Below are positions 2,161 to 27,399 of a DNA stretch of 43,516 bases, one piece after another; positions within the stretch are counted from its first letter, which is position 1, and every line of letters begins with the position of its first letter. Made by a program: the position numbers and the translations under genes. Origin of the DNA: Actinomycetota bacterium (GTDB taxonomy: Bacteria; Actinomycetota; JAUVYG01); contig JAUVYG010000005.1 in assembly GCA_030603185.1 (NCBI GenBank), forward strand, positions 1 to 43,516. Reading direction: 5' to 3'. A model generated the notes under the pieces. The model was not told the origin of the DNA and searched no databases. It saw only the letters and a list, made by a program, of their open reading frames with translations.

Positions 2161-5100
2161 TTAATCCAGCTTCTCTATACGAGCGGCCGACATCTTGAAC
2201 GCGGGGGTTTTAGATGCGGGATCCATTGAGCCGCTAGTGAGCCGATTAGCTGGCGCTTCCGCGAAATGGAACGGAAGGAACACAACGCCCTCTGGAGGCA
2301 TGTTGCTCTCCTTCACCTTTACTTCAACGGACCCTCTTTTGGTCACGACCCGTACTTTTTCCCCATCCGAAACTCCCAATCTGCGCACATCTTCAGGATT
2401 GACCTCGAGTCCCGCCTCGGGAGTGAGCTTGTCTAGAGCCTCTGATCTTCTGCTCATGGTTCCGGTGTGAAAGTGCTGTAGCATGCGTCCCGTAGAGAGC
2501 TGGAATGGGAACTCATCCTCTGGAAGTTCGCCGCGGCCATTCTGCTCGATCACTGTGAATCGACCACGGCCGCGAGGGAACGATTCCCCGTACAGGACTC
2601 TGGTTCCAGAATGATCGGTGTCGGGCACAGGCCACATGAGGTCATTATTCCCGAGCCTCTCATGCCTTACTCCGGCGTACTGCGGTACAAGCCCAGCAAG
2701 CTCCTCCATGATCTCAGCCGACTCCGTGTACGACATCGGGTAACCCATCTTTGTCGAGACCTCGGAGATTACCTGCCAATCGGTGCGGGACTCCCCTATC
2801 GGAGGAATGGCAGGCCTGATCAGTTGAACGCGTCGTTCGGTATTGGTAAAAGTGCCGTGCTTCTCAGCAAAAGATTGCACTGGAAGTACGACATCGGCTA
2901 GCTCGGCGGTCTCAGACAAGAATATGTCCTGGACGACCAGTAGCTCCAGATTGTTCAGGGCTTTTCTGACATGGTCAATGTCAGGGCTACTCATCATCGG
3001 ATTCTCACCCTGAATGTAGAGGGCCTTGAGCTCTCCAGTAGCAGCGGCATCCTCCATCTCAACGACGGTCAGCCCCTCTGCATCAGGGACAGTGGCGCCC
3101 CAGGCTTTTGAGAACTTCTCGCGCACTGCGGGATCAGATACTTTTTGGTATCCGGGCAAAGTAGTAGGCAACCCCATATCGCTGGCACCCTGAACATTGT
3201 TCTGCCCTCTCAGAGGCATCAGGCCGGTTCCAGGCCTTCCGATATGGCCGGTCATCAACGCTAGATTAACAAGGCCGTATGCACCGTTAACACCCGCGAT
3301 ATGCTGGGTGATGCCCATTCCCCACAGGATCATTCCTCGTTTGGCTTTTCCATAGATCAGAGCAGCTTCTCTCAATCGATCGGCTGGAATACCTGTAAGC
3401 TCAGCTACATCCTCAGGGCTGTAATCAGCAAGTACGGTCTTTAGCTCTTCGAATCCTTCTGTTCGGGCTGAGATGAAGTCTTCGTCGATCAATCCCTCAT
3501 CCAGGATGACTCGAGCCATGGCATTCAGAACCGCAACATTACTGCCGGCACTTGGTCTTAGCCAGACATCGCTGTGCTCCACCATTTCGATTCGGCGAGG
3601 GTCGATGACGATAATGGAGGCATCCCGCTCATGCTTTGCAGCAAGAGCAACATTCGAAATCACTGGATGAGTCTCAGTGGTATTCGAGCCGATCACGATG
3701 ATGGCATCTGCTTCACCGATGTCTCGAGTCGTGGCGGAAGGGGCGCTACTACCCAGAGCCTCACCGAGGGCCACTGCAGAAGCGATATGACAAAGTCGTG
3801 CGCAATGGTCGACATTATTGGTGCCGATGGTGGCGCGCATGAACTTTTGGAAAATATAATTCTCTTCATTGGTGGCTTTGGACGAGTTCAAGCCGCCTAT
3901 GGCCCCAGGACCATTCTCTTTCAGGATTGCTCCTAGGCGATCAGCAACATAGGTAGTTGCTTCATCCCATGACACGGGTTCGAGTGCTGCCCCTTTTCCA
4001 CCCTTGCGAATCATGGGGGTCGTCAAGCGATCCTCATGATTGATGAAGTCAAAACCAAAGCGCCCTTTGACGCACAGATTGCCTTCATTGGCCTCAGAAT
4101 CAAAGGAATTCGAGACCGCTACAACCTTTCCATCCTCGGTCTGCAGATCGAATACGCATCCGACTCCGCAATAGACGCAGGTGGTTGATGTCTTGTCTCT
4201 GGTGGAGGCGCGCATCTTCCCCTTATCTGTGAGGTCCTTGAGTGCACCGGTAGGACATGCTGAGACGCACTGTCCACAGTTATTGCAGACAGTGTCCCTA
4301 AAGTCTGTGGTCCCACTTACCAGAGCCGGATACTCGTCCGAGTCGACGGTGTAGACCTTCCGGCGTTGCACCTCGTCGCAGATCCGGACACAGTTGTGGC
4401 ATTTAATGCATTTCTCTTTGTCCATCACAAAGAATGGGTAGCTCGTCAGTTGAGTTAGTTGCTTGTCACCTTTGAACTCTTGGGTGCCAGCCTTATATTT
4501 GATCGAGTTCTCTTGAAGCTGGCACTCTCCAGCAGCCTGACAGATACATTGCAGGCATCGCTCAGCCTCAGCCTTAGCTTGCTCATCCGTGAAGCCTGTG
4601 TCGACCTCACGGAACGCTCCGCTGGCATCATCGGCGCCAAGATTGCCTGGGGTGATCTCGACACCGAACGTCGAGTTGCGAGGCTCAGCCTCAATGGCAG
4701 GCATAGACGCTCTCGGTGTGGTGTTCTCTGTGTGCGCGCCGATATCGAACAGGGTGGGATTCTCTTCAGCCACAATTCGAGCGATATCCCGTTGGTCATT
4801 ACCTTCTAGGAAGGCAGATATGGCCTTGGCAGCACGACGACCGCCTCCAACTGCTTCAACTACTGTCGCTGCGCCTGTCTCACAGTCACCGGCTGCAAAC
4901 ACTCTTGGCAGGCTCGACATCATGGTGGATTCATCCACATTGATCGATCCCCAGCCGGTAAGTGACATGTCTTCCTTCGTGCCAGGCATATCAACGTCCT
5001 GCCCGATCGCCAGAAGGATGTTGTCGACGACAATGTCAAACTCTGAACCCTCGACCGGTTCCGGTCTGCGCCTACCGCTATCGTCCGCTTCGCCCAGGGC

Positions 5101-6324
5101 CATTCTCTTACAGGTCATCACTAGGCTGCCATCTGCCGCCTCAGATATCGAGACAGGAGCGGTCAGGAGCTCTAGCTCAACACCTTCGACCTCGCACTCA
5201 TGGATCTCGTGCGCGCTTGCCGGCATCTCATCACGACCGCGACGATATACGAGCGAAACATTGCTCGCGCCCAACCTTCGAGAGGTACGAGCTGCATCAG
5301 CAGCTGTAAATCCTCCACCAATGACAGCAACGCGATCACCGACGGTAGTTCGCTTGCCTCGGTTTACCTCGGCAAGGAACTCAATGGCAGAGTAAACGCC
5401 CTCGCTGTCCTCACCATCCACACGAGCTGCTTTACCCACGCTGGCCCCGATGCCCATGAACACTGCGTCATGTCCTGAGTCGGTCAGCCCAGTAATGGAT
5501 ATGTCGCGTCCAAGAAACTTACCGGTCTCTAGTTTCACGCCAAGATCCAGAATGTCCTGAATCTCTTGGTCTAGAACGTCTTTGGGCAGTCGGTAGGGCG
5601 GGATCCCGTAGCGAAGCATCCCACCGGCCTTTTCGAGGCCTTCGTAGATGGTCACATCATGACCATCCAGCGCAAGGTAATAGGCGGCTGATAGCCCCGC
5701 AGGGCCGCCACCGACGACTGCAACGGATTTTCCTGTTGCAGGCTCACAATCCGGTTGGGTCTTGTCCCCGGCCTCGACAGCCTTATCCGCGGCATGGCGC
5801 TTCAACCAACAAATGGCCACCGGCTCACCATCGATCTGCGAGCGACGACAAACTGTTTCGCAGGGCGCAGGACATACGCGTCCGATCACTCCCGGCAACG
5901 GAAGGCGTTCTTTGATAAGAGTAGTTGCCGCTCCGAACTCGCCCTTGGCTATTAGGTCGATGTAGCCGGCCACATCAATGCCTGCTGGACATTTGTACTG
6001 GCATGGCGGCAAACAGTACGCATTGTGATTCTCTAGATACTCGCTGAGAATGACCCGTCGGCTCTCGACCAGGGCGGGAGAGTCAACAGTGATCGCCTGC
6101 CCATCCTCAGCGGCGGTCTGACAAGCAAGTACCGGCTCGGATTGCCCACTTATCTCTACGGCACAGACACCGCACCTACCGACAGGTTTGGTGCGAGGGT
6201 CAGAGCAGAGGTTCGGAATGTGCACACCGGCCCGCAATGCGGCCTTAAGTATGGTGTCACCAGTAAGCGCAGGTACGGAAGTGCCGTCTATATCTATTGT
6301 GACTGTCGCCGTTTGAATACTCAT
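2161..6324 (-). CDS. Multidomain formate dehydrogenase: 2Fe-2S ferredoxin + GltD/NfnB-type FAD/NAD(P) oxidoreductase + 2x[4Fe-4S] + FdhA molybdopterin catalytic domain (Cys form)
   Basis: About 1387 aa. N-terminal CxxxxxxxCGRCGVC-type 2Fe-2S region; Fer4_20-like CLPPCQYKCPAGIDVAGY; GltD dinucleotide motif VAVVGGGPAGLSAAYYLALDGHDVTIYE; ferredoxin motifs CIKCHNCVRICDE and CNNCGQCVSACPTGAL; FdhA motifs TTCVYCGVGCVFDLQ and NVDHCARLCHIAS. ATG at 6324 is preferred over TTG at 6330. Confidence 0.93.
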   Translation of the reverse strand: MSIQTATVTIDIDGTSVPALTGDTILKAALRAGVHIPNLCSDPRTKPVGRCGVCAVEISGQSEPVLACQTAAEDGQAITVDSPALVESRRVILSEYLENHNAYCLPPCQYKCPAGIDVAGYIDLIAKGEFGAATTLIKERLPLPGVIGRVCPAPCETVCRRSQIDGEPVAICWLKRHAADKAVEAGDKTQPDCEPATGKSVAVVGGGPAGLSAAYYLALDGHDVTIYEGLEKAGGMLRYGIPPYRLPKDVLDQEIQDILDLGVKLETGKFLGRDISITGLTDSGHDAVFMGIGASVGKAARVDGEDSEGVYSAIEFLAEVNRGKRTTVGDRVAVIGGGFTAADAARTSRRLGASNVSLVYRRGRDEMPASAHEIHECEVEGVELELLTAPVSISEAADGSLVMTCKRMALGEADDSGRRRPEPVEGSEFDIVVDNILLAIGQDVDMPGTKEDMSLTGWGSINVDESTMMSSLPRVFAAGDCETGAATVVEAVGGGRRAAKAISAFLEGNDQRDIARIVAEENPTLFDIGAHTENTTPRASMPAIEAEPRNSTFGVEITPGNLGADDASGAFREVDTGFTDEQAKAEAERCLQCICQAAGECQLQENSIKYKAGTQEFKGDKQLTQLTSYPFFVMDKEKCIKCHNCVRICDEVQRRKVYTVDSDEYPALVSGTTDFRDTVCNNCGQCVSACPTGALKDLTDKGKMRASTRDKTSTTCVYCGVGCVFDLQTEDGKVVAVSNSFDSEANEGNLCVKGRFGFDFINHEDRLTTPMIRKGGKGAALEPVSWDEATTYVADRLGAILKENGPGAIGGLNSSKATNEENYIFQKFMRATIGTNNVDHCARLCHIASAVALGEALGSSAPSATTRDIGEADAIIVIGSNTTETHPVISNVALAAKHERDASIIVIDPRRIEMVEHSDVWLRPSAGSNVAVLNAMARVILDEGLIDEDFISARTEGFEELKTVLADYSPEDVAELTGIPADRLREAALIYGKAKRGMILWGMGITQHIAGVNGAYGLVNLALMTGHIGRPGTGLMPLRGQNNVQGASDMGLPTTLPGYQKVSDPAVREKFSKAWGATVPDAEGLTVVEMEDAAATGELKALYIQGENPMMSSPDIDHVRKALNNLELLVVQDIFLSETAELADVVLPVQSFAEKHGTFTNTERRVQLIRPAIPPIGESRTDWQVISEVSTKMGYPMSYTESAEIMEELAGLVPQYAGVRHERLGNNDLMWPVPDTDHSGTRVLYGESFPRGRGRFTVIEQNGRGELPEDEFPFQLSTGRMLQHFHTGTMSRRSEALDKLTPEAGLEVNPEDVRRLGVSDGEKVRVVTKRGSVEVKVKESNMPPEGVVFLPFHFAEAPANRLTSGSMDPASKTPAFKMSAARIEKLD

Positions 6325-6386
6325 GATCAAATAACCCTTTTGTCGAACGGGCGAACCCGCTTACTTCCGGCAAATAACATGAGAGA

Positions 6387-6472
6387 GCGCCCAGGCGACC
6401 GACAGCCCTCTAGATCTAAGCAAACAGGTGCTTCCGAGTGGTTTACTCCACTTGCGCCAGTCACACCTGCTA
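6387..6472 (-). ncRNA. ZTP/ZMP (pfl motif) riboswitch aptamer upstream of the formate dehydrogenase fusion
   Basis: Minus strand: GCAGGTGTGACTGGCGCAAGTGGAGTAAACCACTCGGAAGCACCTGTTTGCTTAGATCTAGAGGGCTGTCGGTCGCCTGGGC. It contains the pfl hallmarks GUGACUGGCG, GUGG...CCAC hairpin, GGAAGC closing CAGGUG/CACCUG (P1), and downstream CGCCUGGGC. Confidence 0.9.
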
Positions 6473-6492
6473 AATGTTGAAAACGTAGAACG

Positions 6493-6522
6493 ATTCTACC
6501 AGAGCGAACTGGTTCGTCTCAA
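6493..6522 (-). promoter_or_regulatory. Putative sigma70-type promoter for the riboswitch-fdh-nuo transcript
   Basis: TTGAGA - 18 nt - TAGAAT on the minus strand, about 20 nt upstream of the aptamer. Confidence 0.5.
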
Positions 6523-6536
6523 CGAAATTCGGGCTT

Positions 6537-7337
6537 CTAGTCCTCTAGGTATGGATCCAGGTAGGAGTCAAAGTACAGAGTGTCGTTGCGGAATATCTCT
6601 GAGGTCCGAAGAACGCCCATCAAGTCCTTGTCCATCGGGTCAAGAATCGCTGAATCAAGACCATGGTTCATAAGGAACACTAGGTAGATCTTGGTGAGCA
6701 TGTTCTTAAGCTTGCTCGGGGCGCCATTAGAGATGTTGCTCAGACCGACTACCGTGTGTACCTGCGGATCACTAAGCTCACGGAACATCGTCAGGGCCTC
6801 AAAAGTCTCTTTTGGTGGCTGAAGCGACTGCGCGGTGGTAATTGAGAGAACCAAAGGATCGAGGTAAAGGTCGTCAGGTGAGACTCCCTCCACCATGCAA
6901 CGACCGAGGATCTCAGCAGCTATCATTACCCTCTCGTTCGCATCCCTCGGAATACCTTTGTCGGTCATCGTCAAGCCGATGATCTTCGCTCCGTATTTTG
7001 CTGCGAGTGGGATCATGGAGTCCATTCGCTCCACGTCACCCGATGTCGAGTTGATCATCGCTTGACCGTTATGCACTTTGAGTCCTGCCTCGATAGCAGC
7101 AGCATTGGTGGTATCAAGGCAAATGGGCTTGTCGACCTCGGCCTGAACCTGAGTGACCAACCACTCCATCAATTCCGGACCGTCCTTAGAGGCAGGTCCT
7201 ATGCTGATGTCAATGTAGTCAGCGCCAGCAGCAGCCTGTCGCTTCGCCATATCGATGATCGGAGCGGCATCGCGCTCTTTCATCGCAGCGCCGATCCTTT
7301 TGGATATGACTGAGATTCTTTCGCCAATAAGCAGCAT
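6537..7337 (-). CDS. acsE: 5-methyltetrahydrofolate:corrinoid/iron-sulfur protein methyltransferase
   Basis: 266 aa; pterin-binding methyltransferase (MLLIGERISVISKRIGAAMKERD..., AAAGADYIDISIGP, VGLSNISNGAP). Confidence 0.93.
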   Translation of the reverse strand: MLLIGERISVISKRIGAAMKERDAAPIIDMAKRQAAAGADYIDISIGPASKDGPELMEWLVTQVQAEVDKPICLDTTNAAAIEAGLKVHNGQAMINSTSGDVERMDSMIPLAAKYGAKIIGLTMTDKGIPRDANERVMIAAEILGRCMVEGVSPDDLYLDPLVLSITTAQSLQPPKETFEALTMFRELSDPQVHTVVGLSNISNGAPSKLKNMLTKIYLVFLMNHGLDSAILDPMDKDLMGVLRTSEIFRNDTLYFDSYLDPYLED

Positions 7338-8197: not shown

Positions 8198-9583
8198 CTA
8201 AGTCAATGAATGAATCGACATTCCATCGATTCCTTCAGATGCTTCCATAATAGCCTCAGAGTAGGTCGGATGCTGGTGGATGAGTCTTCCTAGCTCAGAG
8301 GCTGTCATGCCTTGAGAGATGGCTAAGGCCGCCTCGTGTATCACGTCAGATGCATGCTCGCCGATGATCTGACATCCGATGATCAGTTCTGTCTGCTCAT
8401 CAGTGACTATCTGGGCAAATCCTTCCTCGTTCCCGTCTCCGAGCGCTCGTCCGAGCGCTCCCATGTTGAATTTGGATACTTTGGCAGTAACTCCCTTTTC
8501 GTTGGCAGCCCGGGGGGACAGCCCAACCGAGGCGTATTCTGGGATAGTGAACACGCAGCTTGGGACGACTGAGTAGTCCATCTCCTCGACTATCCCGAGA
8601 CAGTTAGAGGCGGCCACCTTGGCCTCTGCAGCAGCCACATGTGCAAGCATCGGTTCTCCCACAAGATCGCCTACAGCATATACGCCATCCAGCGATGTTT
8701 TCATGCAGCTATCCACGGTGACTGTGCCATGGTCTACTTCGATTCCCAGATCAGAGATTCCAGCAGTCCCGGTATTCGCGGACCGTCCGACTGCCACAAG
8801 GATGGTGGAATATCGTTCAACTTGATCATTGGATAAAGTAACGTCGACACCACGATCATCCCGGATCAGGGCCGAAATACTGGCACCCTCGATTATCTGC
8901 ACTCCGTTCCTCTTGAGATAACGGCTGTGCTGCGCGACGACCCTTGGGTCGTCCTTTCTCATCAACTTTGATCGGGCCAGGATCGTGACGTCTGAGCCCA
9001 GAGCAGAGTAGATTGACGCGAATTCAGCGGCGATGATGCCCGCACCGACGATAAGGAGCTTTTCGGGGAGCTCAGTGAGTGCGAGCGCTTGATCCGTGCT
9101 GATTACGCGGTCTCCGTCGGTCGAAACATCGGGCAGCTCGACACTTGATGAGCCGGTGGCAAGGATTACCTTGTCCACCTCAATAAGCTCGGTTCCACCT
9201 GCCGATTCTACCGATATCTGGAAAGGACTAATCAGGGTCGCTGCTCCAGAGAGGTACAGGACTTTTCTTTGCTTAAGAAGGGACTGAATACCGGCTACCA
9301 GCTTACCGATGATGCGATCATTTCGAGCAGTCATCTTCGACAGCGCTACCGTAGGCGTGCCTACTTCAATACCAAGCTCGGAAGCGGTCTGAATATCCTT
9401 GAATAAACGTGCAGATCGAACGAGGGCTTTGGTGGGTATGCACCCACGATTAAGGCAAGTGCCCCCAAGTTCCGCTCGCTCTATTAGTGTGACATCCGCA
9501 CCCAACTGGGCTGCCCGAATAGCAGCGGTGTAGCCTCCTACCCCGCCGCCAATAACGCCTACCCGTACAGGGTCAGTGGCTAT
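8198..9583 (-). CDS. lpdA: Dihydrolipoamide dehydrogenase-like flavoprotein; predicted AUA start
   Basis: GGTCLNRGCIPTKALV redox motif and HQHPTYSEAIMEA C-terminus. The FAD-binding motif VGVIGGGVGGYTAAIRAAQLGADVTLIE begins upstream of the ORF-track start (TTG 9505) and is open back to an ATAG overlap with the acsC stop. Confidence 0.9.
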   Translation of the reverse strand: MATDPVRVGVIGGGVGGYTAAIRAAQLGADVTLIERAELGGTCLNRGCIPTKALVRSARLFKDIQTASELGIEVGTPTVALSKMTARNDRIIGKLVAGIQSLLKQRKVLYLSGAATLISPFQISVESAGGTELIEVDKVILATGSSSVELPDVSTDGDRVISTDQALALTELPEKLLIVGAGIIAAEFASIYSALGSDVTILARSKLMRKDDPRVVAQHSRYLKRNGVQIIEGASISALIRDDRGVDVTLSNDQVERYSTILVAVGRSANTGTAGISDLGIEVDHGTVTVDSCMKTSLDGVYAVGDLVGEPMLAHVAAAEAKVAASNCLGIVEEMDYSVVPSCVFTIPEYASVGLSPRAANEKGVTAKVSKFNMGALGRALGDGNEEGFAQIVTDEQTELIIGCQIIGEHASDVIHEAALAISQGMTASELGRLIHQHPTYSEAIMEASEGIDGMSIHSLT

Positions 9584-10950
9584 GCAGCACTCCAGTCGCG
9601 AAGGAATACCGTGAGATCAGTCGCCTCACGTGATCCAACCTGGATCTTCCAATCACCATTCAGCTCGTCCTCAAGCTCACCACTCATCTGAGCTACGTAG
9701 CCAGGGATGATGAGACTGTTGTGATTGACCTTTTCGGCCATTCCGGATCGCTTAATGAACTTAGCGATCCTATCAGGAACGAACTTACCTGCAGCCCAGG
9801 CTGTCAGGACAGACATTCCCTCGGCATCCATAATCGCGATCCATGTAGGAACCTTGCTGGCCTCTACCTCGCCTGTGACCATGAAATAGGTCAGCGAGAA
9901 GTTGGTGGTCAGGATAACGGGCGAATCAGCGGTGGGGTTATTAATCGGATACATTCCCTCATCAACCTGCATTGGACGCTGTGGGTCGGTGAAGATGTTC
10001 TGCCGAAGAACGGTAAGTGGGAGGACCTTCCACGCCTCGAGTCCGGACATGACCATGATGCCGCCGTACTTCATGGTGTAGAGGGAAGCGTACATCGTCT
10101 CTAGGAGCTCGTTGTCCGTCTCTTCGCACGGGAAAGTGATGACTGGGTATCCAAGTGGCTTGTGCCCACTCTTAAGGGCTGAACGGCGTACATGCACAAG
10201 ATTCTTGTGAGTATCCGCAGCGTTCCTCGAGCCCGGATCTAAGACTATGTCCTTAATTCCAGCAGCTGCGACCTTCTCGGTCAGAGCCGACAGGTCTTCT
10301 AGGCTTCCAGACTCGACCTTAACGACCAGAGGAAGATCAGCTTCCTTGGCGATCGCAGTCATCGCTTCATGATTGCTGTCGGTCGCTGCATAAAGAAGAG
10401 GATGGCTGTCCTTGACGCCTGGAGCATCGATGGCAGTCTTAATGGCGTCTGGGTCATCTGACATCAGAATCAACGGAAATCCGGTGGCGGCAAGGGCCTT
10501 AGCGGATAGTGCCGCAAATGCTGCTGCGTCCCCAGAGTCATTCTTAACAGCGATACAGTCAGCCTTGAGCAGCTGACCGACTCTCTCGAACTGAGACGCC
10601 TTTGCCTCAGCGAGCTTTGTATCTACAACAGCATCATCCATCGAAGTGGAAAGCTGAAGGCCGTATCCAGGGTTGTTGTAGAAGGTCTTTTCGTGACGGA
10701 ACATGACTAGCTCTTCGCCAACCTTGAACTTGCTATCGCCAGATCCTATTTCTACACCGCGAATAGGAGGAGCGGATGCCTCGGACAATGCCGCTACAGC
10801 AGCCTCAGTCACATGTGGACACTCGCCTAGTTCAGCTGCTGCCTGCGCCAACTTCATGGCAAAGGCCAAGCATGTTGGTACCCCACAATCACCACAATTA
10901 GTCTTTGGGAGTTGTTTGAAAATCTCTAGTCCTGTGAGCGCCACGCTCAT
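9580..10950 (-). CDS. acsC: Corrinoid/iron-sulfur protein large (gamma) subunit
   Basis: 456 aa; N-terminal [4Fe-4S] motif LPKTNCGDCGVPTCLAFAMKLAQ. Confidence 0.95.
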   Translation of the reverse strand: MSVALTGLEIFKQLPKTNCGDCGVPTCLAFAMKLAQAAAELGECPHVTEAAVAALSEASAPPIRGVEIGSGDSKFKVGEELVMFRHEKTFYNNPGYGLQLSTSMDDAVVDTKLAEAKASQFERVGQLLKADCIAVKNDSGDAAAFAALSAKALAATGFPLILMSDDPDAIKTAIDAPGVKDSHPLLYAATDSNHEAMTAIAKEADLPLVVKVESGSLEDLSALTEKVAAAGIKDIVLDPGSRNAADTHKNLVHVRRSALKSGHKPLGYPVITFPCEETDNELLETMYASLYTMKYGGIMVMSGLEAWKVLPLTVLRQNIFTDPQRPMQVDEGMYPINNPTADSPVILTTNFSLTYFMVTGEVEASKVPTWIAIMDAEGMSVLTAWAAGKFVPDRIAKFIKRSGMAEKVNHNSLIIPGYVAQMSGELEDELNGDWKIQVGSREATDLTVFLRDWSAA

Positions 10951-10976
10951 CCCCTTTCAACGTCTCAAATCGGAAC

Positions 10977-11009
10977 CCGGCCGGAGCCCTTATTGTGCGC
11001 TCCGGCCGG
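10977..11009. repeat. Strong GC-rich hairpin between acsB and acsC
   Basis: CCGGCCGGAGC - 11 nt - GCTCCGGCCGG, perfect 11-bp stem. Confidence 0.7.
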
Positions 11010-11089
11010 ACCGTTCTTCTATGTTAATTCCGAAGCATCCCCGGCCTTCCGAAGAAGCAACCTGCCTAGGATACAAAAGCGGTCATTAC

Positions 11090-11107
11090 CTGTCCAGTGT
11101 TGGACAG
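11090..11107. repeat. Second acsB-acsC intercistronic hairpin, right after the acsB stop
   Basis: CTGTCCA-gtgt-TGGACAG, 4 bp downstream of the acsB TAG on the minus strand. Confidence 0.55.
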
Positions 11108-11111
11108 TAAG

Positions 11112-13319
11112 CTACATAATCGGGTCCATGGTAAGTGCGGGATGACCCACCTTGTTCATGTGCTCGATAACCTCATCCTCAGTAGTAGCAGTATTCTCAT
11201 CAGCGATCTTGCTGATGAAGTCGGGGTCTCCAATTCTCTCCGCCTGCTGCTCTAACAGAGGCCTCATCTGCTCCTTGAGGGAGCTAGGCATCCACGCGAT
11301 ACGCGAGAAGCCGCCGTCACCGAACAAGAATTTTGGTGATCCAAGGTAGTACTTTCCAACCCCCAAGAAACCAGGAGTCTGTACACCACCGCCGACCATA
11401 CCGGCCATGGTGGAGAAGGTCATTCCCGATGGAGTCATGATAGCGCTGTCGCGATCCACGACCATCACTGCATTTGTCATCGGCATGATTGCCAGAATGG
11501 CCTCGAAGCAACCGCAGGACGTCATTGGATTGTGGATCATACTGTATAGACTCAGACTATCCAGCGTGCCCTGAGAGTGTTTCTTAACAAACTCGTTCAC
11601 ACCAGAGAATTCGCCGAGCTTGGCGTCGATGATCTCACCCTTTGGAACTGGCTTGTGACCACCGGTGGGATCGATCTCGGAGCCGACTTTTCCGTCAAGC
11701 CAGTTGAAAGCTCCGCACAGTCCAAGCCTCTCAGGGCTGATAACACAGACCTGTGTGGGAGCGAAGGACTGACAGATCATACAAGAGTAGAAGGTGTCCA
11801 CAGACTCATCGGTCATTCCCTCAAGTCTATGGTCTCTCTCAGAGTAGATCTCGCGTGCGGCCACAAGTTCCTCGGTCACTTTTTCTTGGTCGCTGTAGAT
11901 CTCAACCTCTACCTTGTCGATAGCATTCTGGAATTCACTGAGCAGCTTTGACCGCAAGATGCGACCAAGATGCTCTAGCTTGAAGCCCTGCTCTTTCGCC
12001 TGCTTGCTCACACGTATCCATGCTACGTCGCGCTGTCCGATGTGCATCACACCCTCAGCACCGTTGATCCAGTGATGGAACTGACGCTCCATTATCGGCT
12101 CATAGTCTTTATTCATATTGCGCCCAGCGATCTTGACCTTGAGGGCCAAAGGAAGAGCTGAGTTCTCTTCAGTCTCGTCTACATCGGGTCCTACAACGGT
12201 GACCTTTCCATCTTCAATGGAATCAAGATCCACTGACTGGATGAGCTCGAAGCAGTCTGACTTGGTGCCGCCCATTTGAACATGAACTGCATCCTTACGC
12301 ACGCGCTCACCCTCGAAGGCCGGACTGTAGCCAACAGGAATGTCTGGCTTATCCACAATGATCTTGAGTCCGCGAACCTCGATAGCTTTCTGAACGATCT
12401 TGTCATGTGGAACTGCGGACACAACGTGCTCGTAGGTTGTAAGACCGCGAGGTAGGATCTCAGGTATTCCGGTATCAGCAATAGCTGGGAACCCGAAGTT
12501 GATCGCACCTGCAGCCTGCGCGAATTGCTCGTCGCTCACAGGTCCGAGCGCCATAGCGAACGCAAATATCCTGTTCTTGTTGTATAGAAGGTTCTTCTTG
12601 AAGTCACCAGGCTGCACAAGACCAAAGGCCATGGCGGCACGTACAGCAAACCCTAGAGCGAATACAGTCGCGGTGGTGTCGACTCCGAAGGGGACCAGAC
12701 GGGTCTCCCAACCCATCTCAACGCCGCCCTCTTTCAGCTGATCTGCGAAACTGACACCCTCTTTGTTTGAGGAGATGAATACGTACAGGCTCTTCTCCTG
12801 CAGCTCGCGAGCGATGCGGACGGCTGTCTCTACATCCGGTGCAGCACCAAGAATTGCTGCGAAGCCGGGAGCAGAACCATCGACGAACTCAATACCACGC
12901 TCGCGAAGGATGACATCATCAGCGGCACCCAACCAGATATTGTCATCTGTCGGAGACGTCGTCTTGGTATATGGGCAATCCTCGCCCTCTACGTACTTTA
13001 GAGCCTCGATGATCTCGTCTGCCCACAGAGCAGCCATACCTGAATCAAGAGTCTCACCCAGGTATGGAACCCAGACCTTTTCCTTAGGATCAGCCGGCAT
13101 AAGCTCTGCAGCCATGTCGATGATCTTCTGAATGTCCCCAAGCTTCTCAACGGCCTCACCGGTCATCGCATAGATGACTGGTAGATAGTAGTTGGTGTTC
13201 GGGAACGCTACCGGCTTATCCGGGCCGTACTTGCCCAGTGCCTCATTCAGCCGATCTTGTGCTCTCGCAACAATTGTTTTTGCACCGCGTATTGCTGCGG
13301 ACGCTATTACCTTAGACAC
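11112..13319 (-). CDS. acsB: CO-methylating acetyl-CoA synthase / CODH-ACS beta subunit
   Basis: 735 aa; A-cluster region CMICQSFAPTQVCVISPERLGLCGAFNWLDG and MTSCGCFEAI. Confidence 0.95.
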   Translation of the reverse strand: MSKVIASAAIRGAKTIVARAQDRLNEALGKYGPDKPVAFPNTNYYLPVIYAMTGEAVEKLGDIQKIIDMAAELMPADPKEKVWVPYLGETLDSGMAALWADEIIEALKYVEGEDCPYTKTTSPTDDNIWLGAADDVILRERGIEFVDGSAPGFAAILGAAPDVETAVRIARELQEKSLYVFISSNKEGVSFADQLKEGGVEMGWETRLVPFGVDTTATVFALGFAVRAAMAFGLVQPGDFKKNLLYNKNRIFAFAMALGPVSDEQFAQAAGAINFGFPAIADTGIPEILPRGLTTYEHVVSAVPHDKIVQKAIEVRGLKIIVDKPDIPVGYSPAFEGERVRKDAVHVQMGGTKSDCFELIQSVDLDSIEDGKVTVVGPDVDETEENSALPLALKVKIAGRNMNKDYEPIMERQFHHWINGAEGVMHIGQRDVAWIRVSKQAKEQGFKLEHLGRILRSKLLSEFQNAIDKVEVEIYSDQEKVTEELVAAREIYSERDHRLEGMTDESVDTFYSCMICQSFAPTQVCVISPERLGLCGAFNWLDGKVGSEIDPTGGHKPVPKGEIIDAKLGEFSGVNEFVKKHSQGTLDSLSLYSMIHNPMTSCGCFEAILAIMPMTNAVMVVDRDSAIMTPSGMTFSTMAGMVGGGVQTPGFLGVGKYYLGSPKFLFGDGGFSRIAWMPSSLKEQMRPLLEQQAERIGDPDFISKIADENTATTEDEVIEHMNKVGHPALTMDPIM

Positions 13320-13354
13320 TTTTTAGTGTTCTCCTCTCGAAACTAGTCGTCCGC

Positions 13355-15385
13355 TTATACTTCAAGGTCGCGGCGCATTTCCATGTCATACAAAACTCGT
13401 TCTTGCTCGCCATTGATGCCTAGAGCTTCACGTTTTTTGTCGATATGAGCAAGCATTCCATCAGCCATATCTTCCCACTTATCGAACTGTGCCCACTTGC
13501 CGCCAGAGATCTGCTCGTAGTCCTCAAAAATATACTTCTGGAACTCAGTCGATCCGGTTACAGGAAGTGTGGGGCGGAAGGCCACATATACACCGTAGTC
13601 TACGAAGTACTGTCCGATGGCTATGGCTTTCGCGTCCATCCAATCGGGAGCAGCACCGGCTACCGGCAGTTCATCTATGTCCTCTCCGATTCCACCTTCG
13701 TGAACCATCTCGGCCAAGGCAACTAGGATGCGACTATTGTCAACACACGCCCCGGCATGCAATACCGGTCCGATTCCGACAGCCTCACAGATTGAACGAA
13801 GTCCGGGGCCCGCCATTTCCATCGCTTCAGGAGTCAGCAGCCCGGCCTTGCCAGACACAGTTGCTGAACAACCTGTCTGAACAACCAGAACATCATTGGC
13901 AATAAGCTTCTTCACAAGCTCTACATGGGCAGCTTCTGATGTGCCCTCTTTGTTGTTCGTCACCGGTGTATCACAACCAACAACGGCAGCGACTCCTCTG
14001 ATGCGACCGTCAATGATCGCATCATTAAGTGGCCTGAAAGATGCGCGGAACTTCCCGCCTAACATGTACTTGATGTATTCGAACGAGTAGCCGGCTACCG
14101 CAGGCATCTTATCCTTGACCGGATTGATCTTGGAGGGATCACGATTCTTGAAATTTTCGATAACCATGTCAACGATGGCCTTCGCCTGTTCCTGCGCGTT
14201 CGAGTGGTCTGTCTCGACATGCTGAACACCCTCAATCATTGCTTTGGGGGAAGTTGTCAGCAATTTAGTGTGGTAGTGCTTCGCGACCTCGCCAAGCCCC
14301 TCAATGACGCATTGAACGTCAACAACCATGCCGTCAACGATGCCCGTACCCATAACGACTTCCTGGGCTGAGTAGCTGCCAGCGATTGAGACACCATGGC
14401 GCACCATCTGCTCGTTAGCTGTACAGCAGATACCAGCCATATTAAAACCTTTAGCACCAACCGCCTCGGCCTTAGCTTGCACCTCTGGGGTAAGGGAGTA
14501 CTCTACCATCAGCTCAGTAACCGAAGGCTCATGCCCATGGAATACTAGGTTTACGTAGTCGGGCTCGAGAACTCCGAGGTTTACCTCGCCAGTGGCAGGA
14601 GCCGGAGTGCCGAAGATGATATCCTGCAGTTCCGTTGCCACCATCGATCCGATCCAGCCATCAGCCATCGCGGTACGGGATACCTGCTTCATGAGGTTCT
14701 TATACTGCTGATCCATTCCCTGGTTGGTTCGGTGCATCAGCTCTACGACCTCGCGGTCGTTGCCTCGGGGAATAATCCCCATCTCGCGCCATTTTTCGAT
14801 CCTCTTGGCTGGCGCCCTACTAATAAAAGCTCCCTCACCGTGCTGGTTTGAGAACTCGGCTAGAGCCTTACGCCCTACGTCACCGCCAATCTCAAGGTCA
14901 CTGCGACCCTCGAGCTCGATCCCCCACTCTTCAGCGAGAGCGTACAGCTTGATTGTGTCCTTGATCCGATAGCCCGGTGCCTTTTCCTCTGACACGGCGA
15001 TCATCAGCTCGGCGACCTCACGGCCATGGTCCGAGTGACACGCTGTTCCTGCGGCAACGAATTTACCGAACTGGCGGGCGACTACTGTCTCGATCGTCAC
15101 ACCGCAAACGCCACGGTCCTTACCCTCTTTGCCTTCAATGAGGCGACAGGGGCCCATTTTGCAGGTATTACAGCAGACTCCTGCTGCGCCGATGGGACAC
15201 GGCTTCATAGTGTTCTGGCGGTCCCAGGCTGTGCTTATCTGATCGTCCTGCATTCGCGCGAGGATCTGGGATGTTGCTGCACATGATGTTAGACCCTCAA
15301 GGCCTGGGACAACATCACACTGGACCCCAAGGTCTTTGACCTCCGTCACGTCACCCATACTTGACTGTCTCTTCTCGTCGCTCAT
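13355..15385 (-). CDS. cooS: Anaerobic carbon monoxide dehydrogenase catalytic subunit
   Basis: 676 aa; CPIGAAGVCCNTCKMGPCRL, GICCTANEQMVRHG, QTGCSATVSGKAGLL, HAGACVDNSRIL. Confidence 0.95.
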   Translation of the reverse strand: MSDEKRQSSMGDVTEVKDLGVQCDVVPGLEGLTSCAATSQILARMQDDQISTAWDRQNTMKPCPIGAAGVCCNTCKMGPCRLIEGKEGKDRGVCGVTIETVVARQFGKFVAAGTACHSDHGREVAELMIAVSEEKAPGYRIKDTIKLYALAEEWGIELEGRSDLEIGGDVGRKALAEFSNQHGEGAFISRAPAKRIEKWREMGIIPRGNDREVVELMHRTNQGMDQQYKNLMKQVSRTAMADGWIGSMVATELQDIIFGTPAPATGEVNLGVLEPDYVNLVFHGHEPSVTELMVEYSLTPEVQAKAEAVGAKGFNMAGICCTANEQMVRHGVSIAGSYSAQEVVMGTGIVDGMVVDVQCVIEGLGEVAKHYHTKLLTTSPKAMIEGVQHVETDHSNAQEQAKAIVDMVIENFKNRDPSKINPVKDKMPAVAGYSFEYIKYMLGGKFRASFRPLNDAIIDGRIRGVAAVVGCDTPVTNNKEGTSEAAHVELVKKLIANDVLVVQTGCSATVSGKAGLLTPEAMEMAGPGLRSICEAVGIGPVLHAGACVDNSRILVALAEMVHEGGIGEDIDELPVAGAAPDWMDAKAIAIGQYFVDYGVYVAFRPTLPVTGSTEFQKYIFEDYEQISGGKWAQFDKWEDMADGMLAHIDKKREALGINGEQERVLYDMEMRRDLEV

Positions 15386-15448
15386 CGGCTACCTCCTTGG
15401 CAAGTTTCACGGCACAATTGGCCGTACTCAACGCTAATATTGCATTTC

Positions 15449-15469
15449 AAAAGACCCCCGTGTGGGGTC
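15449..15469 (-). terminator. Possible attenuator/terminator hairpin in the cooS leader
   Basis: Minus strand GACCCC-ACACG-GGGGTC-TTTT; short U-tract, lying between the regulator gene and cooS. Confidence 0.5.
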
Positions 15470-15491
15470 GAATAAGAGGGGCGGAAAGAAT

Positions 15492-15528
15492 GATACCAGA
15501 GATAACCCTGGTATCGTGGAACTGTCAA
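15492..15528 (-). promoter_or_regulatory. Putative cooS promoter with palindromic operator over the -10 region
   Basis: Minus strand TTGACA (15523-15528), 17-nt spacer, weak -10 TTATCT (15500-15505) inside the perfect inverted repeat GATACCAG-N8-CTGGTATC (15492-15515). Confidence 0.6.
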
Positions 15529-16238
15529 AGGGTTAGGGTCATACGGCATTCTTCTCCCTTCAATACGATACGCTCCTCAGACACTCCTGAGATCTTTAGG
15601 CCGACCTCAGAGGCGACTCCGGACAGTAGACCATGACAGACCTGGCATAACTTAGTCCCGTGCTTGGGCCCCAGATCAGCATAAATGCAGTTCGTGTTTA
15701 CGATGTTGGCCTCCTGCTCGCTCTGGTTCGTGGCACGCGTCATGTAACCCAGGTGCTCAAGGACCGAGAGGAAACGTTCCACTTGGTGACCGAAGTCTTC
15801 ATCACCGGGCGTGCCAGTGAGCACATCAGATGCAAGATCCTTGCCCGATTCAGCGGCCACTTCAGCGATCTTACTGCCACCCACCTTGTCGGACGAAGCG
15901 AGCGCCCTTAATAGTAGGTCAGACATAAGCATGTACTGACGTCCAGGATAGTGAAGTTGTAGTCCTCGGCTACCAGGGACATACACCTTTGCAGGTCTTC
16001 CACCTGCCGGATTTCGTCTAGATTTCGCGAGAATCAAGCCTGCAGCTTCAAGCTTAGCCAGATGATGTCTTGCCGCGTTAGGATGCAGCCCGAACGCACC
16101 GGAGACGTCAAGGGCGGTGACTGGATCAGCAGACCGCATTACAAATCGCAGCATATCGATGCGCGTTGGGTCCCCGAGTATCTGCCCGACTTCTTTTAAG
16201 TCGTCCCCAAAGGGACGCGAATATTCAGGTGGAGTCAT
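15525..16238 (-). CDS. ArsR/SufR-like winged-helix transcriptional regulator with a C-terminal cysteine cluster (putative Fe-S or redox sensor)
   Basis: 237 aa; N-terminal HTH (ILGDPTRIDMLRFV...ALDVSGAFGLHPNAARHHLAKLEAAGLI); C-terminal NCIYADLGPKHGTKLCQVCHGLLSG...GEECRM. Confidence 0.8.
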   Translation of the reverse strand: MTPPEYSRPFGDDLKEVGQILGDPTRIDMLRFVMRSADPVTALDVSGAFGLHPNAARHHLAKLEAAGLILAKSRRNPAGGRPAKVYVPGSRGLQLHYPGRQYMLMSDLLLRALASSDKVGGSKIAEVAAESGKDLASDVLTGTPGDEDFGHQVERFLSVLEHLGYMTRATNQSEQEANIVNTNCIYADLGPKHGTKLCQVCHGLLSGVASEVGLKISGVSEERIVLKGEECRMTLTL

Positions 16239-16244
16239 GCTGAA

Positions 16245-16273
16245 ATTATAACTGACCGATGAGTTAAGTCCAA
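16245..16273 (-). promoter_or_regulatory. Putative promoter of the regulator; leaderless transcript predicted
   Basis: Minus strand TTGGAC - 17 nt - TATAAT, then TTCAGC and the ATG (6 nt after TATAAT); no Shine-Dalgarno. Confidence 0.6.
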
Positions 16274-16313
16274 TTTACCCTGTGGCTATTGTCTATACCC
16301 GTATTTCAGGAAT

Positions 16314-17258
16314 CTAGTACAACTCGTCGATTGCACTCTTAACGAGCTTGATTGACTCAGGGTGCCTCATGATCAGGACGTTTGCTCCTGCTACAAGCAT
16401 TGATAGAGCAGTGATTGCCTCCCAGAGGATGCCTCTCTTGTCCTGGTCGCCCCACTCAGGAGCGTCCGCTTCCGAGGTCTTAACCTCTTTGGCCTTCCAC
16501 ACTTCACGTGTGACATTGCAGATGATAGGCAGCTGCATAACCTCGTCATTCGACTGCAAAGCCGCGAGACGATCGCGCTCCATTACTGAATAGCTGTATT
16601 CAAGCCCGTAGCCCAGCGACTGACCGCCAGTGGATGGATCCATTAGCACCATGTCTTCGGGAACTCCAAGATTGCCAAGCAAGATGTTGAGCTGCTTGGC
16701 CAGATTGACATCGATCGGAGTGGTACCGATCACGTTTTGGCGGTAACCCAATGCCGCACCGGCGACAGCCTTGTAGTTATCCTGAGTCGCAGGTCCAATA
16801 ACGATCCGCTTGTCCTGACCCACCTCGGCTGCCTTCTTCAGCACCTCGGCATCCTTCTCAGCATTACCGCATCCAAGCACCATAATGGGAAGATCAGTAG
16901 CGTCCGCAACGGCCTTTATGACCTCGGCTGCTTCATCCGGGGACTTATCGCCATTGTTCGGGTCAGCACCAGCAAGGTGCAGTGCGACTATGTCAGCACC
17001 CAACTCTGCAGCCTTCTTTGCCCATGCTGCTGGATCATTCACCGAGTCGCCATACTCTTTAGTTAGGGCCTCAGGCCAGTTGGACGGAGCGATGTCCTGG
17101 ATCTCGATTGCGATAGCCGGCTTATTCGGAGTGTCACCCTCGAAGCCATGAAAAGGAAGAGCGGTCTCTCCCCCAACTGTGACTGCGGTATCACCAGTTC
17201 CGATCGTTACCTCGCGAATCTTCCCGGGCATGTCCTGTGTCGGTGTGCTGTACGCCAT
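16314..17258 (-). CDS. acsD: Corrinoid/iron-sulfur protein small (delta) subunit
   Basis: 314 aa; TIM-barrel CdhD/AcsD family (LMDPSTGGQSLGYGLEYSYSVMERDRLAAL). Confidence 0.94.
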   Translation of the reverse strand: MAYSTPTQDMPGKIREVTIGTGDTAVTVGGETALPFHGFEGDTPNKPAIAIEIQDIAPSNWPEALTKEYGDSVNDPAAWAKKAAELGADIVALHLAGADPNNGDKSPDEAAEVIKAVADATDLPIMVLGCGNAEKDAEVLKKAAEVGQDKRIVIGPATQDNYKAVAGAALGYRQNVIGTTPIDVNLAKQLNILLGNLGVPEDMVLMDPSTGGQSLGYGLEYSYSVMERDRLAALQSNDEVMQLPIICNVTREVWKAKEVKTSEADAPEWGDQDKRGILWEAITALSMLVAGANVLIMRHPESIKLVKSAIDELY

Positions 17259-17288
17259 TCTTGGTTCCTCTCTTATCTAATTAGCCAG

Positions 17289-18161
17289 CTAGGCTATTGT
17301 CGCGGTTCTATTACCTACAGCGAAGCCCGCTGCCTTCAACGTTGCCTTTAGAAGCATTGCGATTGTCATGGGTCCTACTCCGCCGGGTACTGGCGTTATC
17401 GCACCAGCTATCGGAAGACATGACTCAAAATCAACATCACCGACAAGCCCTTCGTCGGTGCGGTTGACGCCGACGTCAATCACTATTGCTCCTTTTTTAA
17501 GCATGTCGCCAGTCACCATTTTCGGCACGCCCACAGCAGCAACCACGATGTCGGCCTGCTTTACCTCAGCAGCAAGGTCGACTGTGCGGGAGTGGCAAAT
17601 GGTTACCGTTGCACTCTCCTTGAGAAGCATCATAGAAATAGGCTTACCAACAATATTGCTGCGACCGATCACCACGGCCTTCTTTCCGGACACGTTGACG
17701 CCAAGGGTTTCGAGCATGACCATCACGCCCGTAGGAGTGCAAGGCTGGTGGCACTCTTCGCCAATGACCAGTCTGCCTACATTAATGGGGTGAAATCCGT
17801 CAACATCCTTGTCGGGCTCTATAAGCTCAAGAACCTTTTTCTCATTGATGTGAGAAGGAAGTGGAAGCTGCACCAGTATGCCGTGCACCTCGTCATCCTT
17901 ATTAAGGTCAGACACGATCTTGAGGAGCTCGGTCTCGCTGATTGTAGCGGGGAGCATGATCTGGACGGATTTCATTCCGACCTCCTCGCATCCTTTGTGC
18001 TTGTTGCGCACGTAAACCTCGGATGCGGGGTCCTCTCCAACGAGGACAACGGCTAGAGCTGGGGTAATACCGGTCTCAGCAACGAATGTGCTGACCTCAC
18101 GCTTTAGCTCCTGCCTTTTGGCGGCGGAAATAGCTTTACCGTCGATGATATCGGCGGACAT
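17289..18161 (-). CDS. folD: Bifunctional methylenetetrahydrofolate dehydrogenase/methenyl-THF cyclohydrolase
   Basis: [58 protein letters not shown] at 18161 has an AGGAG SD. Confidence 0.96.
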
Positions 18162-18208
18162 CTGGCTCCTTTCGGTGGAGTTAGACAAAAACGACACTTG
18201 AATTCAAA

Positions 18209-21191: not shown

Positions 21192-23084
21192 TTAGCGGGC
21201 TGATTTCCTCTTGGCCACCGAGGGGAACAGTGACTCGTCGGTATGAGGAATAAATAAGGCTGACATGTAGTGATCCATGTAGCTTGGCACGTGGCTAAGC
21301 TCAATATAGGTGAGCTTGCGGGCAATCTCTTTGGCTTTGGAGCGTGCACCCTCTGACTGGAGCGCTAACCTGGCTCCAAGCAATGAACCGTTTCCAACGT
21401 AGCGGAACTTTTCCAACGGCAGGTCTGGAAGCAGTCCGACCCCCACGGCCTTCTCGATATCCAGATAGTGTCCGAATCCTCCTGCGATGAGAACCTGGTC
21501 AATGGCATCGAGGGTGAGTCCGACGTTGTCCAGCAGGCTTGTAACGCCCGCGAATATCGCTCCCTTGGCTCTGATGAAATTATCGATGTCGTTTTCGTCT
21601 AGCACGATATCTTTACCGGTGCCGGATTCCATCGCGTCAACAAGCACATACTCCGGGGCGCCATCCCTCTCAGTTACCGCTTCAACGGATCTGTCCAGTT
21701 TTCCATCGGGCCCCAGAACGCCTGCCATGTACATCTCGGAAATCGCGTTGATGATGCCGGATCCGCAAATGCCGATGGGTTTGCCCTGACCAACGGTGAA
21801 CACCGTTGGTCTACGGGACATGGGATCGACCCTAACGAGCTCAATGGCCCCTTTTGCGGCTCTCATGCCATTCCGTATCCCACCACCCTCAAATGCTGGC
21901 CCAGCGGAGCACGCACAGGTCATCATCCACTCGCGATTGCCGAGGACCATTTCACCATTGGTACCCATGTCTACGAATAGGGTCAGCGGCTCGCGGTCAG
22001 CCACTGAGGTCGCTAGAACCCCGGCGACTATGTCGCCGCCAACATAGCTGGCAACACACGGAGCGATTGCAATGAGCCCCTTGGGCGACATGGCGATACC
22101 TGAATCAACCGCCGAGACCAGCCCGTAGTCGGTTATTGATGGGACATAGGGCTCTTCGCGAATGTACTTGGGGGGAATTCCCAGCAGCAATTGAGTCATC
22201 GTAGTATTTCCCGCCAGGCTGAGATAGATGATGGCGGAGTGATCCGAGCTGACCTCGGACAAGAGCTCATTGATGGTCTTCAGGACCGCCTCTCTTAGCT
22301 CAGAGAGGCCCTTGTCGTCGCGAGCATGAACGATCCTTGTGATCACATCGTCGCCGAAAGCGATCTGTGCGTTGTAGGCGGTTGCCCTGGCGATGATGCG
22401 GCCATCGTTCAGGTCGATCAACTCTGCGGCGCACGTCGTTGTGCCTATGTCCATAGCCACACCCAATAACGATGAGCTCGTATCCCCGGGCTCGATCTGT
22501 ATTACCCGTTGTCCAATGATCGTAACGGTCAGTTTCCAATCCGATTCACGGAAGAGGTGTACTGACTCGCGAATCACACCAAGAGAAATACTCGGCGTCT
22601 CAATGCCCTGCTCTACGAGAGCACGTTCCAGCCTCTCTTTATCTGCAGTGGGCTCCTCTAGAGAAGGCGGGGTGACCTCAAGATAGATCTTCCTAACGGC
22701 TGGGGGTTCCTCGAAGACAGGAAGGGACTCTTCGAAGTCCGAGCCCTTCAGGACTTTACTGTTGAGAACCTCGACACGCTTGCCCTCGGGTGGCTTGATG
22801 TGCGTGAGTGAAGTCTCTTCGGGAATCGTTACGACAATGTCCTCGGTTACCTTCGAGAGGCATGCCAGAACATAGCCGTCATCGCGGTCCTGTTGAGTAA
22901 GTTTTGGGCTCTTGCCCCCTACTACTTCCCCACTGTCGATCCGGACCCTGCATTTGCCGCAGGTGCCGGCGCCGCCACAGGCGGCGTAAAGGTGCACCTG
23001 GCCTCCGAGGGCGGCCCTAAATAGGTTCTCACCCTCGTCGACCTGTATTTCTACGTTGTCAGGAAGGAATAGTACCTTCGGCAA
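21192..23084 (-). CDS. RACo-like reductive activator of the corrinoid/iron-sulfur protein (2Fe-2S + ASKHA ATPase)
   Basis: 630 aa; CGGAGTCGKCRVRIDSGEV 2Fe-2S motif; ASKHA-type motifs GVAMDIGTTTCAAELIDL, LFVDMGTNGEMVLGN, VLIAGGFGHYLDIEKAVGVGLLPDLP. Confidence 0.93.
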   Translation of the reverse strand: MPKVLFLPDNVEIQVDEGENLFRAALGGQVHLYAACGGAGTCGKCRVRIDSGEVVGGKSPKLTQQDRDDGYVLACLSKVTEDIVVTIPEETSLTHIKPPEGKRVEVLNSKVLKGSDFEESLPVFEEPPAVRKIYLEVTPPSLEEPTADKERLERALVEQGIETPSISLGVIRESVHLFRESDWKLTVTIIGQRVIQIEPGDTSSSLLGVAMDIGTTTCAAELIDLNDGRIIARATAYNAQIAFGDDVITRIVHARDDKGLSELREAVLKTINELLSEVSSDHSAIIYLSLAGNTTMTQLLLGIPPKYIREEPYVPSITDYGLVSAVDSGIAMSPKGLIAIAPCVASYVGGDIVAGVLATSVADREPLTLFVDMGTNGEMVLGNREWMMTCACSAGPAFEGGGIRNGMRAAKGAIELVRVDPMSRRPTVFTVGQGKPIGICGSGIINAISEMYMAGVLGPDGKLDRSVEAVTERDGAPEYVLVDAMESGTGKDIVLDENDIDNFIRAKGAIFAGVTSLLDNVGLTLDAIDQVLIAGGFGHYLDIEKAVGVGLLPDLPLEKFRYVGNGSLLGARLALQSEGARSKAKEIARKLTYIELSHVPSYMDHYMSALFIPHTDESLFPSVAKRKSAR

Positions 23085-23093
23085 GCGGCTGGC

Positions 23094-24812
23094 CTAGAAC
23101 AATCCGACGGTCTTACCATCTTCATCGATATCTATACGGGTGCCCCCAGGGACTGATGGCAATCCAGGCATGGTACGCATATCGCCGCAGAGTGGATACA
23201 AGAAGCCAGCGCCGACAGCGGCCTTGACGTCCCTGATGGGTACTCTGAATCCAGTTGGACGACCCTTCAAGGTCGGGTCATGGCTGAGAGAGAGATGAGT
23301 CTTGGCCATGCATATGGCAAGGTCGCTCATTCCAAGATCGGTGTACTGCTTGATCTTCTTCTCTGCAAGTGGGGAGTAATCCACCCCGTCTCCACCGTAT
23401 ATCTCGGTGACGATGGTCTCGATCTTCTCTTTTATGGATGCGCTATCAGGATAGAGAAGCTTGAACTCGCTTGGCAGCTCAGCTGCCGTGATAACCGCTT
23501 TTGCAAGGTCCTCGGCGCCTTCTCCACCGTCAGCCCAGTGGGTCGAGACAACCGCGTCGGATGCTCCTGCGGAGATAGCCCGCTCACGAATCATATCGAT
23601 CTCAGCAGGAGTATCAGTCGCAAAAGCGTTGACACAAACAACTGTCGGAATACCGAACTTGTTCACGTTCTCGATGTGCTTCTCAAGATTGACCATTCCC
23701 GCTGCCAGTCCGTCAAGATCCTCTGCGAGTAGCCCCGGATCGAGTGGCTTACCTGCGATAATGGTGTATTTGCCACTGTGGCTCTTAAGCGCCCTAACAG
23801 TAGCAACGATGACGACCGCGTCTGGATACTGTCCTGAGTAGCGACACTTAATGTTGGCGAACTTCTCAAAGCCCATGTCAGCGCCGAAGCCTGACTCTGT
23901 TACTACGTAGTCACCAAGCTTTAGACCGACCTGGTCCGCGACGACCGAGCTGTTGCCGTGGGCTATGTTTGCGAATGGTCCTGCGTGCACAAGAACAGCT
24001 GAGTTCTCGAGTGTCTGGATCAGGTTTGGATTGATCGCATCCTTAAGCAGTACTGTCATTGCGCCGGCAACCTTGAGGTCCTCGGCTGTAACAGGCTCAC
24101 CGTCATATGAGAATGCAACTACGACGCGTCCAAGACGCTCGCGCATATCGTGAAGGCTGGTGGCCAGTGCGAGGATCGCCATCACTTCAGAGGCGACGGT
24201 AATATCGAACCCATTCTCACGCGGGTAACCGTTTGCACGACCGCCAAGACCGATTGTGATCTGGCGAAGAGCCCTATCGCTTACATCCACGACTCTTGGC
24301 CACAGAACGGAGTTAGGATCGATGTTCAGTTTGTTGCCGTGCATGATCGAGTTGTCGATAAAAGCGGCGCAAAGATTGTGAGCCATAGTCACCGCGTGAT
24401 TGTCACCGGTGAAGTGAAGATTGAAGTCCTCCATTGGAACGACCTGTGAGTATCCACCGCCGGCTGCACCGCCCTTGATGCCGAATACAGGGCCGAGAGA
24501 TGGCTGCCTGATGGCGGCAATGCTCTTCTTGCCTAGTCGAGCTAGACCTTGAGCGAGACCGACTGTCGTGGTCGTCTTTCCTTCCCCAAGAGGAGTAGGA
24601 GTAATAGCCGTTACATCGATGTACTTACCGTTCGGCCTGTCCTGAAGTCTTTTCAGTACATCCAAATTGATCTTGGCTTTGTACTTTCCGTATAGCTCTA
24701 GTTCGTCCTCTTTCAGGCCGAGCTCAGCGGCGATTTCTGTAATCGGCTTCATGACTGCGGCTTGAGCTATATCAAGATCGCTAGGCACATTCTTAGTGGC
24801 GGTTGTCAACAT
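23094..24812 (-). CDS. fhs: Formate--tetrahydrofolate ligase
   Basis: 572 aa; VTAITPTPLGEGKTTTTVGLAQGL, RQPSLGPVFGIKGGAAGGGYSQVVPMEDFNLHFTGD. SD AGGAGG before the ATG. Confidence 0.97.
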   Translation of the reverse strand: MLTTATKNVPSDLDIAQAAVMKPITEIAAELGLKEDELELYGKYKAKINLDVLKRLQDRPNGKYIDVTAITPTPLGEGKTTTTVGLAQGLARLGKKSIAAIRQPSLGPVFGIKGGAAGGGYSQVVPMEDFNLHFTGDNHAVTMAHNLCAAFIDNSIMHGNKLNIDPNSVLWPRVVDVSDRALRQITIGLGGRANGYPRENGFDITVASEVMAILALATSLHDMRERLGRVVVAFSYDGEPVTAEDLKVAGAMTVLLKDAINPNLIQTLENSAVLVHAGPFANIAHGNSSVVADQVGLKLGDYVVTESGFGADMGFEKFANIKCRYSGQYPDAVVIVATVRALKSHSGKYTIIAGKPLDPGLLAEDLDGLAAGMVNLEKHIENVNKFGIPTVVCVNAFATDTPAEIDMIRERAISAGASDAVVSTHWADGGEGAEDLAKAVITAAELPSEFKLLYPDSASIKEKIETIVTEIYGGDGVDYSPLAEKKIKQYTDLGMSDLAICMAKTHLSLSHDPTLKGRPTGFRVPIRDVKAAVGAGFLYPLCGDMRTMPGLPSVPGGTRIDIDEDGKTVGLF

Positions 24813-27352: not shown

Positions 27353-27399
27353 TATCCTCAGTCTACCTGAGGTCATATTGGAAAACGAACGGAGATGCT

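Follow-up and report, generated by a model that had tools for sequence, protein, structure and literature searches.

A predicted ZMP/ZTP riboswitch precedes a fused formate dehydrogenase gene in a Wood-Ljungdahl cluster of an Actinomycetota bacterium

The accumulation of ZMP and ZTP signals a shortage of 10-formyl-tetrahydrofolate (10-formyl-THF). In the stretch of DNA analyzed in this study (43,516 nucleotides, hereafter the window), a candidate aptamer for these molecules lies in the leader of a fused formate dehydrogenase gene (fdh), which raises the question of whether the same signal sets the supply of formate in this organism. We consider it likely that the leader holds a genuine ZMP/ZTP riboswitch that has its own promoter, drives fdh alone, and turns it on when 10-formyl-THF is short. 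The aptamer and its target are as follows.

6474..6382, reverse strand: ZMP/ZTP (pfl) riboswitch aptamer with P1, P2, P3, and the GGCG/CGCC pseudoknot (RF01750)
2161..6324, reverse strand: fused formate dehydrogenase (FDH), 1387 amino acids, cysteine form (TIGR01591 and Pfam)

A cmscan search of the 43.5 kb against the 4227 families of Rfam 15 gave a full-length match to RF01750 (model positions 1–86) with 50.8 bits (gathering cut-off, 39) and an E value of 1.7e-5. A sequence-only reading had assigned the element to the ZTP (pfl) class and proposed an Infernal comparison with RF01750 as its check; this significant match bears out the assignment. It is the single RF01750 match in the 1.8-Mb, 95%-complete genome assembly. 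With our own covariance model (R1), built from 32 aptamers of the phylum, the aptamer scored 54.5 bits versus 14.9 for the next-best match in the window, and no second convincing aptamer was found there. The core motifs named in that reading (GUGACUGGCG, GUGG/CCAC, GGAAGC, CAGGUG/CACCUG, and CGCCUGGGC) were all found, and the alignments show an intact core (ACUGGCG, GG-A-GC, CGCCUGGGC). The P1 and P3 helices and the J1/2–L3 pseudoknot are present. The pseudoknot is paired in all 16 related aptamers, and six P1 pairs are altered on both sides among them (co-variation), while the P2 pair count in this 16-aptamer alignment is distorted by a one-column misalignment. Judged by its sequence, the window aptamer is an ordinary member of the ZMP/ZTP riboswitch family, with ZMP/ZTP as the predicted ligand. 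It resembles RF01750 in score, core, the three helices, pseudoknot, 5′ leader position, and the overlapping terminator of its relatives; it differs in its target, a molybdopterin-type FDH in a Wood-Ljungdahl cluster, and in that the window copy has no terminator.

The FDH scored 826.7 bits against TIGR01591 (formate dehydrogenase alpha; curated cut-off, 666.25). Its domains are arranged in the order NuoG-like 2Fe-2S, GltD-like flavin/NAD(P), ferredoxin, and FdhA, with Pfam matches to Fer2_4, Fer4_20, Pyr_redox_2, and Molybdopterin. Cysteine replaces selenocysteine, and the motif NVDHCARLCH is found in the sequence. The gene is the last of a Wood-Ljungdahl (acetyl-CoA pathway) cluster, and the riboswitch lies between acsE and fdh. 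The annotated upstream genes include the following.

6537..7337, reverse strand: acsE-like methyl-THF:corrinoid protein methyltransferase, the gene before the riboswitch (NF005719, 272.6 bits)
9580..18197, reverse strand: acsC, acsB, cooS/acsA, a helix-turn-helix protein gene, acsD, and folD (NCBIfam and Pfam matches)
21192..24812, reverse strand: acsV and fhs, the latter encoding formate-THF ligase (NF040756, 678.9 bits; NF010030, 824.3 bits)

The cluster before fdh comprises fhs, acsV, folD, acsD, cooS, acsB, acsC, a dihydrolipoyl dehydrogenase gene, a CooC-like ATPase gene, and acsE, so that ACS/CODH, acsC/D/E, fhs, and folD occur together. The genes fhs and folD, which are customary ZTP targets, stand upstream of the switch, and the aptamer is placed before fdh. 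The distance from the aptamer 3′ end to the fdh ATG (6324), given earlier as about 60 nt, is 57 nt on the same strand with no intervening gene, which is a leader position before a one-carbon gene that shares its cluster with fhs and folD. Translation of fdh could instead start at an in-frame TTG at 6330. The location of the FDH gene among acetyl-CoA pathway genes makes it probable that the enzyme works in the CO2-reducing direction; it could run as a formate oxidase instead. The cluster also contains an HTH_20 (ArsR-like) regulator gene (15525–16238), and a DUF3786 gene (26711–27376) lies near fhs and acsV.

We propose a route by which the signal may reach fdh. When 10-formyl-THF is short, PurH would be unable to formylate ZMP, and ZMP (and ZTP) would rise. 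Ligand binding would stabilize P3 and the pseudoknot and turn fdh on, and more FDH would yield more formate from CO2. The cluster also encodes Fhs and FolD, which would then channel the formate to both 10-formyl-THF and the Wood-Ljungdahl methyl branch. A likeness exists in pfl (pyruvate formate-lyase), another formate source controlled by ZTP riboswitches, where the same logic applies and formate supply goes up when 10-formyl-THF is short (PMC2864571). Unlike in pfl, the formate in the window organism would come from CO2 via a metal-dependent FDH and not from pyruvate. No AICARFT domain (PF01808) was detected in the assembly of the window genome. A comparison with a relative's PurH showed that purH is present as an N-terminal part cut by a contig end. 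The replacement of AICARFT by a formate-dependent PurP was therefore rejected, the absence of PF01808 being an assembly gap at that contig end; PurP itself was not found in 1.02 Mb of contigs with an approximate probe sequence.

Further aptamers before fdh homologs were found in f21, another family of the same phylum. Among the 396 genomes surveyed, 43 have a ZTP aptamer. In f21, 14 of the 19 genomes carry one each, and 13 of these 14 aptamers lie directly before a homologous fused FDH gene. All 13 leaders have a terminator hairpin that shares the P3 3′ strand and is followed by a T run; the CGCCUGGGCC stretch of L3/P3 forms its 5′ arm, and the folding energies range from -19.8 to -24.8 kcal/mol. 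A terminator overlapping P3 is the known layout of transcriptional ON-switches (PMC2864571; PMC7337938), and the f21 leaders appear to share this antiterminator layout. Nearly all f21 genomes checked have fhs and ACS. The survey upstream of fdh homologs, which had been suggested earlier, thus gave a divided answer: the 13 FDH-linked aptamers in f21 are on one side, and on the other, the fused-FDH loci of Sedimenticola and of two Actinomycetota families, f18 and f27, yielded no ZTP aptamer, so the link between aptamer and FDH is not general. Together with the covariance-model match, the f21 aptamers support FDH as the riboswitch target, and their ON-switch terminators support the proposal that a shortage of 10-formyl-THF turns on formate supply. 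Because the window leader lacks its relatives' terminator, the ON direction in the window is proposed by analogy.

The FDH of the window has another history than those of f21. In the phylogenetic tree, it groups with the FDH of Sedimenticola hydrogenitrophicus (L006; 64% identity) with an SH-aLRT value of 100, apart from the f21 FDHs, and the common descent of one FDH–riboswitch unit in the window and f21 was rejected for the gene. The identity with this gammaproteobacterial enzyme points to gene transfer. The P1–P2 core of the window aptamer, however, is closest to the f21 FDH aptamers. Since FDH lineage and aptamer-core affinity disagree, the histories of leader and gene differ, and because the FDH lineages differ, either aptamer and FDH came together on two or more occasions or the leader was transferred to a different FDH gene. 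This discordance would also suit a relic leader that arrived alongside some other gene and has lost control of the FDH, but the conserved core positions, P1, and pseudoknot are all intact, the leader retains a promoter-like site and short spacing, and the same pairing recurs in f21. We regard a relic as very improbable and favor a working riboswitch.

The remaining elements of the fdh leader are as follows.

6522–6493, reverse strand: promoter-like TTGAGA-N18-TAGAAT, 10 of 12 consensus positions
about 6362–6347, reverse strand: small hairpin GCGGG-TTCG-CCCG, with no T run after it
6407..6301, reverse strand: putative expression platform (RNAfold alternative fold)

The promoter-like site, also noticed in the earlier reading, is present with 10/12 matches, and shuffled sequence contains a mean of 0.3 sites of that quality. 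An inverted repeat (GTAGAA-TCG-TTCTAC, 6485–6499) overlaps its -10 element and is possibly an operator. No terminator-like site was found in the window leader; a terminator overlapping the aptamer 3′ part is a common but not required feature of the family. The hairpin with the TTCG loop is present as described earlier but was ruled out as a terminator because it lacks a T run, and it probably does not act as the switch element, for which an alternative fold that disrupts P3 is a better, though still putative, candidate. In this RNAfold prediction, the P3 5′ strand (6407–6400) pairs with early codons (6308–6301), and CUCAUG (6383–6378) pairs with CAUGAG (6325–6320) at the start codon. The segment 6480–6290 folds at -61.3 kcal/mol when free, with P1 and P2 kept and P3 broken, versus -50.0 kcal/mol with P3 enforced, in a comparison that leaves the pseudoknot out. 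This energy gap was reached by 5 of 150 downstream shuffles, and start-codon accessibility differs little between the folds (0.11 vs 0.24). Compared with shuffles, the alternative fold has only a moderate advantage and gives modest, non-conserved support. It suggests, as a lead only, that the window copy may be under translational control by start-codon masking: ligand-stabilized P3 would oppose the alternative fold and unmask the start codon. The earlier argument had run from the missing U-tract to translational control; the terminator is indeed missing, and for the translational mode itself the alternative fold is a weak pointer.

A real aptamer might also act by another route, either through mRNA processing or by terminating, with Rho or otherwise, transcripts that run on from the acs operon. 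The missing intrinsic terminator, the nearly unchanged accessibility of the start codon, and the location of fdh downstream of acsE in the same direction would fit such a route, but a promoter-like site stands between acsE and the aptamer, and the P3-breaking fold takes in the start codon and early codons. We hold this route to be a less likely but serious alternative to start-codon masking.

The genes 3′ of fdh bear on the extent of control. Beyond a 130-nt gap, in which no terminator-like site was found, lie nuoA, B, C, and D with the same orientation, and the switch might thus tune the whole fdh–nuo (complex I) block and join folate stress to respiration, a link that the sequence-only reading had raised. 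However, the gap contains a promoter-like site before nuoA, and the gene after fdh is fmdE-like, not nuo, in the single f21 FDH locus annotated downstream. Control of complex I was accordingly not upheld and seems unlikely to us; the preferred reading keeps fdh as the only target.

The wider survey placed ZTP aptamers mostly before known types of target. Classical purine/folate genes are the majority in Actinomycetota and Bacillota, and glyA, folD, serC, purH and PRK07106 types, pfl, fhs, and purE lie behind most surveyed sites, with pfl preceded by an aptamer at 16 of them. Actinobacterial associations with SerC_3 and glyA among the aptamers make Actinomycetota the probable identity of the surveyed phylum, and oxalate/formate-type transporters are also among the targets. 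Aptamers precede TIGR01440 (DUF436) genes at L185, L194, and L196. At L160 and L168 (G448 and G447), two divergent aptamers lie about 170 nt apart, with purE on one side and a membrane protein gene without an NCBIfam match on the other.

Tungsten is a metal usable by FDH-type enzymes. In G028, the one aptamer-bearing f21 genome without an FDH link, the aptamer precedes tupA, tupB, and an ABC ATPase gene, and its FDH is of a third lineage in the tree. A chance match was rejected for this 34-bit aptamer, given an overlapping terminator and a complete tup operon downstream. In the same locus (L147, G028:C85, 11543–8816), a Moco riboswitch (RF01055, 79.3 bits) follows before mobAB, so that two riboswitch classes stand in series on tungsten/molybdenum genes. 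Moco riboswitches control molybdenum/tungsten cofactor genes; the likeness to the ZTP elements lies in such metal-cofactor genes and in this neighboring pair, whereas the aptamer and presumed ligand are unrelated and the window element belongs to a different class. In G275, from another class, a 57-bit aptamer with a terminator precedes a ModE-type gene, tupA, tupB, and an ABC ATPase gene. The acetogen Sporomusa ovata (L227/L159, G443:C1) has a tandem aptamer pair with a terminator before moeA. At two other Sporomusa loci (L229 and L230; G443:C3 and G441:C1), rex is preceded at a distance of about 900 nt by an aptamer, the interval contains no clear gene, and modA and modB are found further on.

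We lean towards an unrecognized ZTP regulon in autotrophic or acetogenic bacteria, one that would tie purine/folate stress to metal-dependent CO2 reduction through FDH (at least two lineages), tungstate uptake (tupABC, modE-tup), and moeA (molybdenum cofactor insertion), and that would have been acquired independently more than once. The literature search covered sources other than Kim et al. 2015 and the Weinberg 2010 supplement, where an earlier listing is possible; within it, we found no paper connecting ZTP riboswitches with formate dehydrogenase or the Wood-Ljungdahl pathway and, judged from listings, none linking them with tungsten. The target set of FDH and tungsten genes, and not the aptamer, looks to be the new part. 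If the proposal is true, the alarmone of 10-formyl-THF shortage also sets the first carbon-fixation step of the acetyl-CoA pathway; in other bacteria it also sets the supply of a metal usable by such enzymes. The proposal would provide a testable regulatory tie of autotrophic C1 entry to purine synthesis, and the aptamer would serve as a marker for formate-making, as opposed to formate-oxidizing, FDHs in uncultured genomes.
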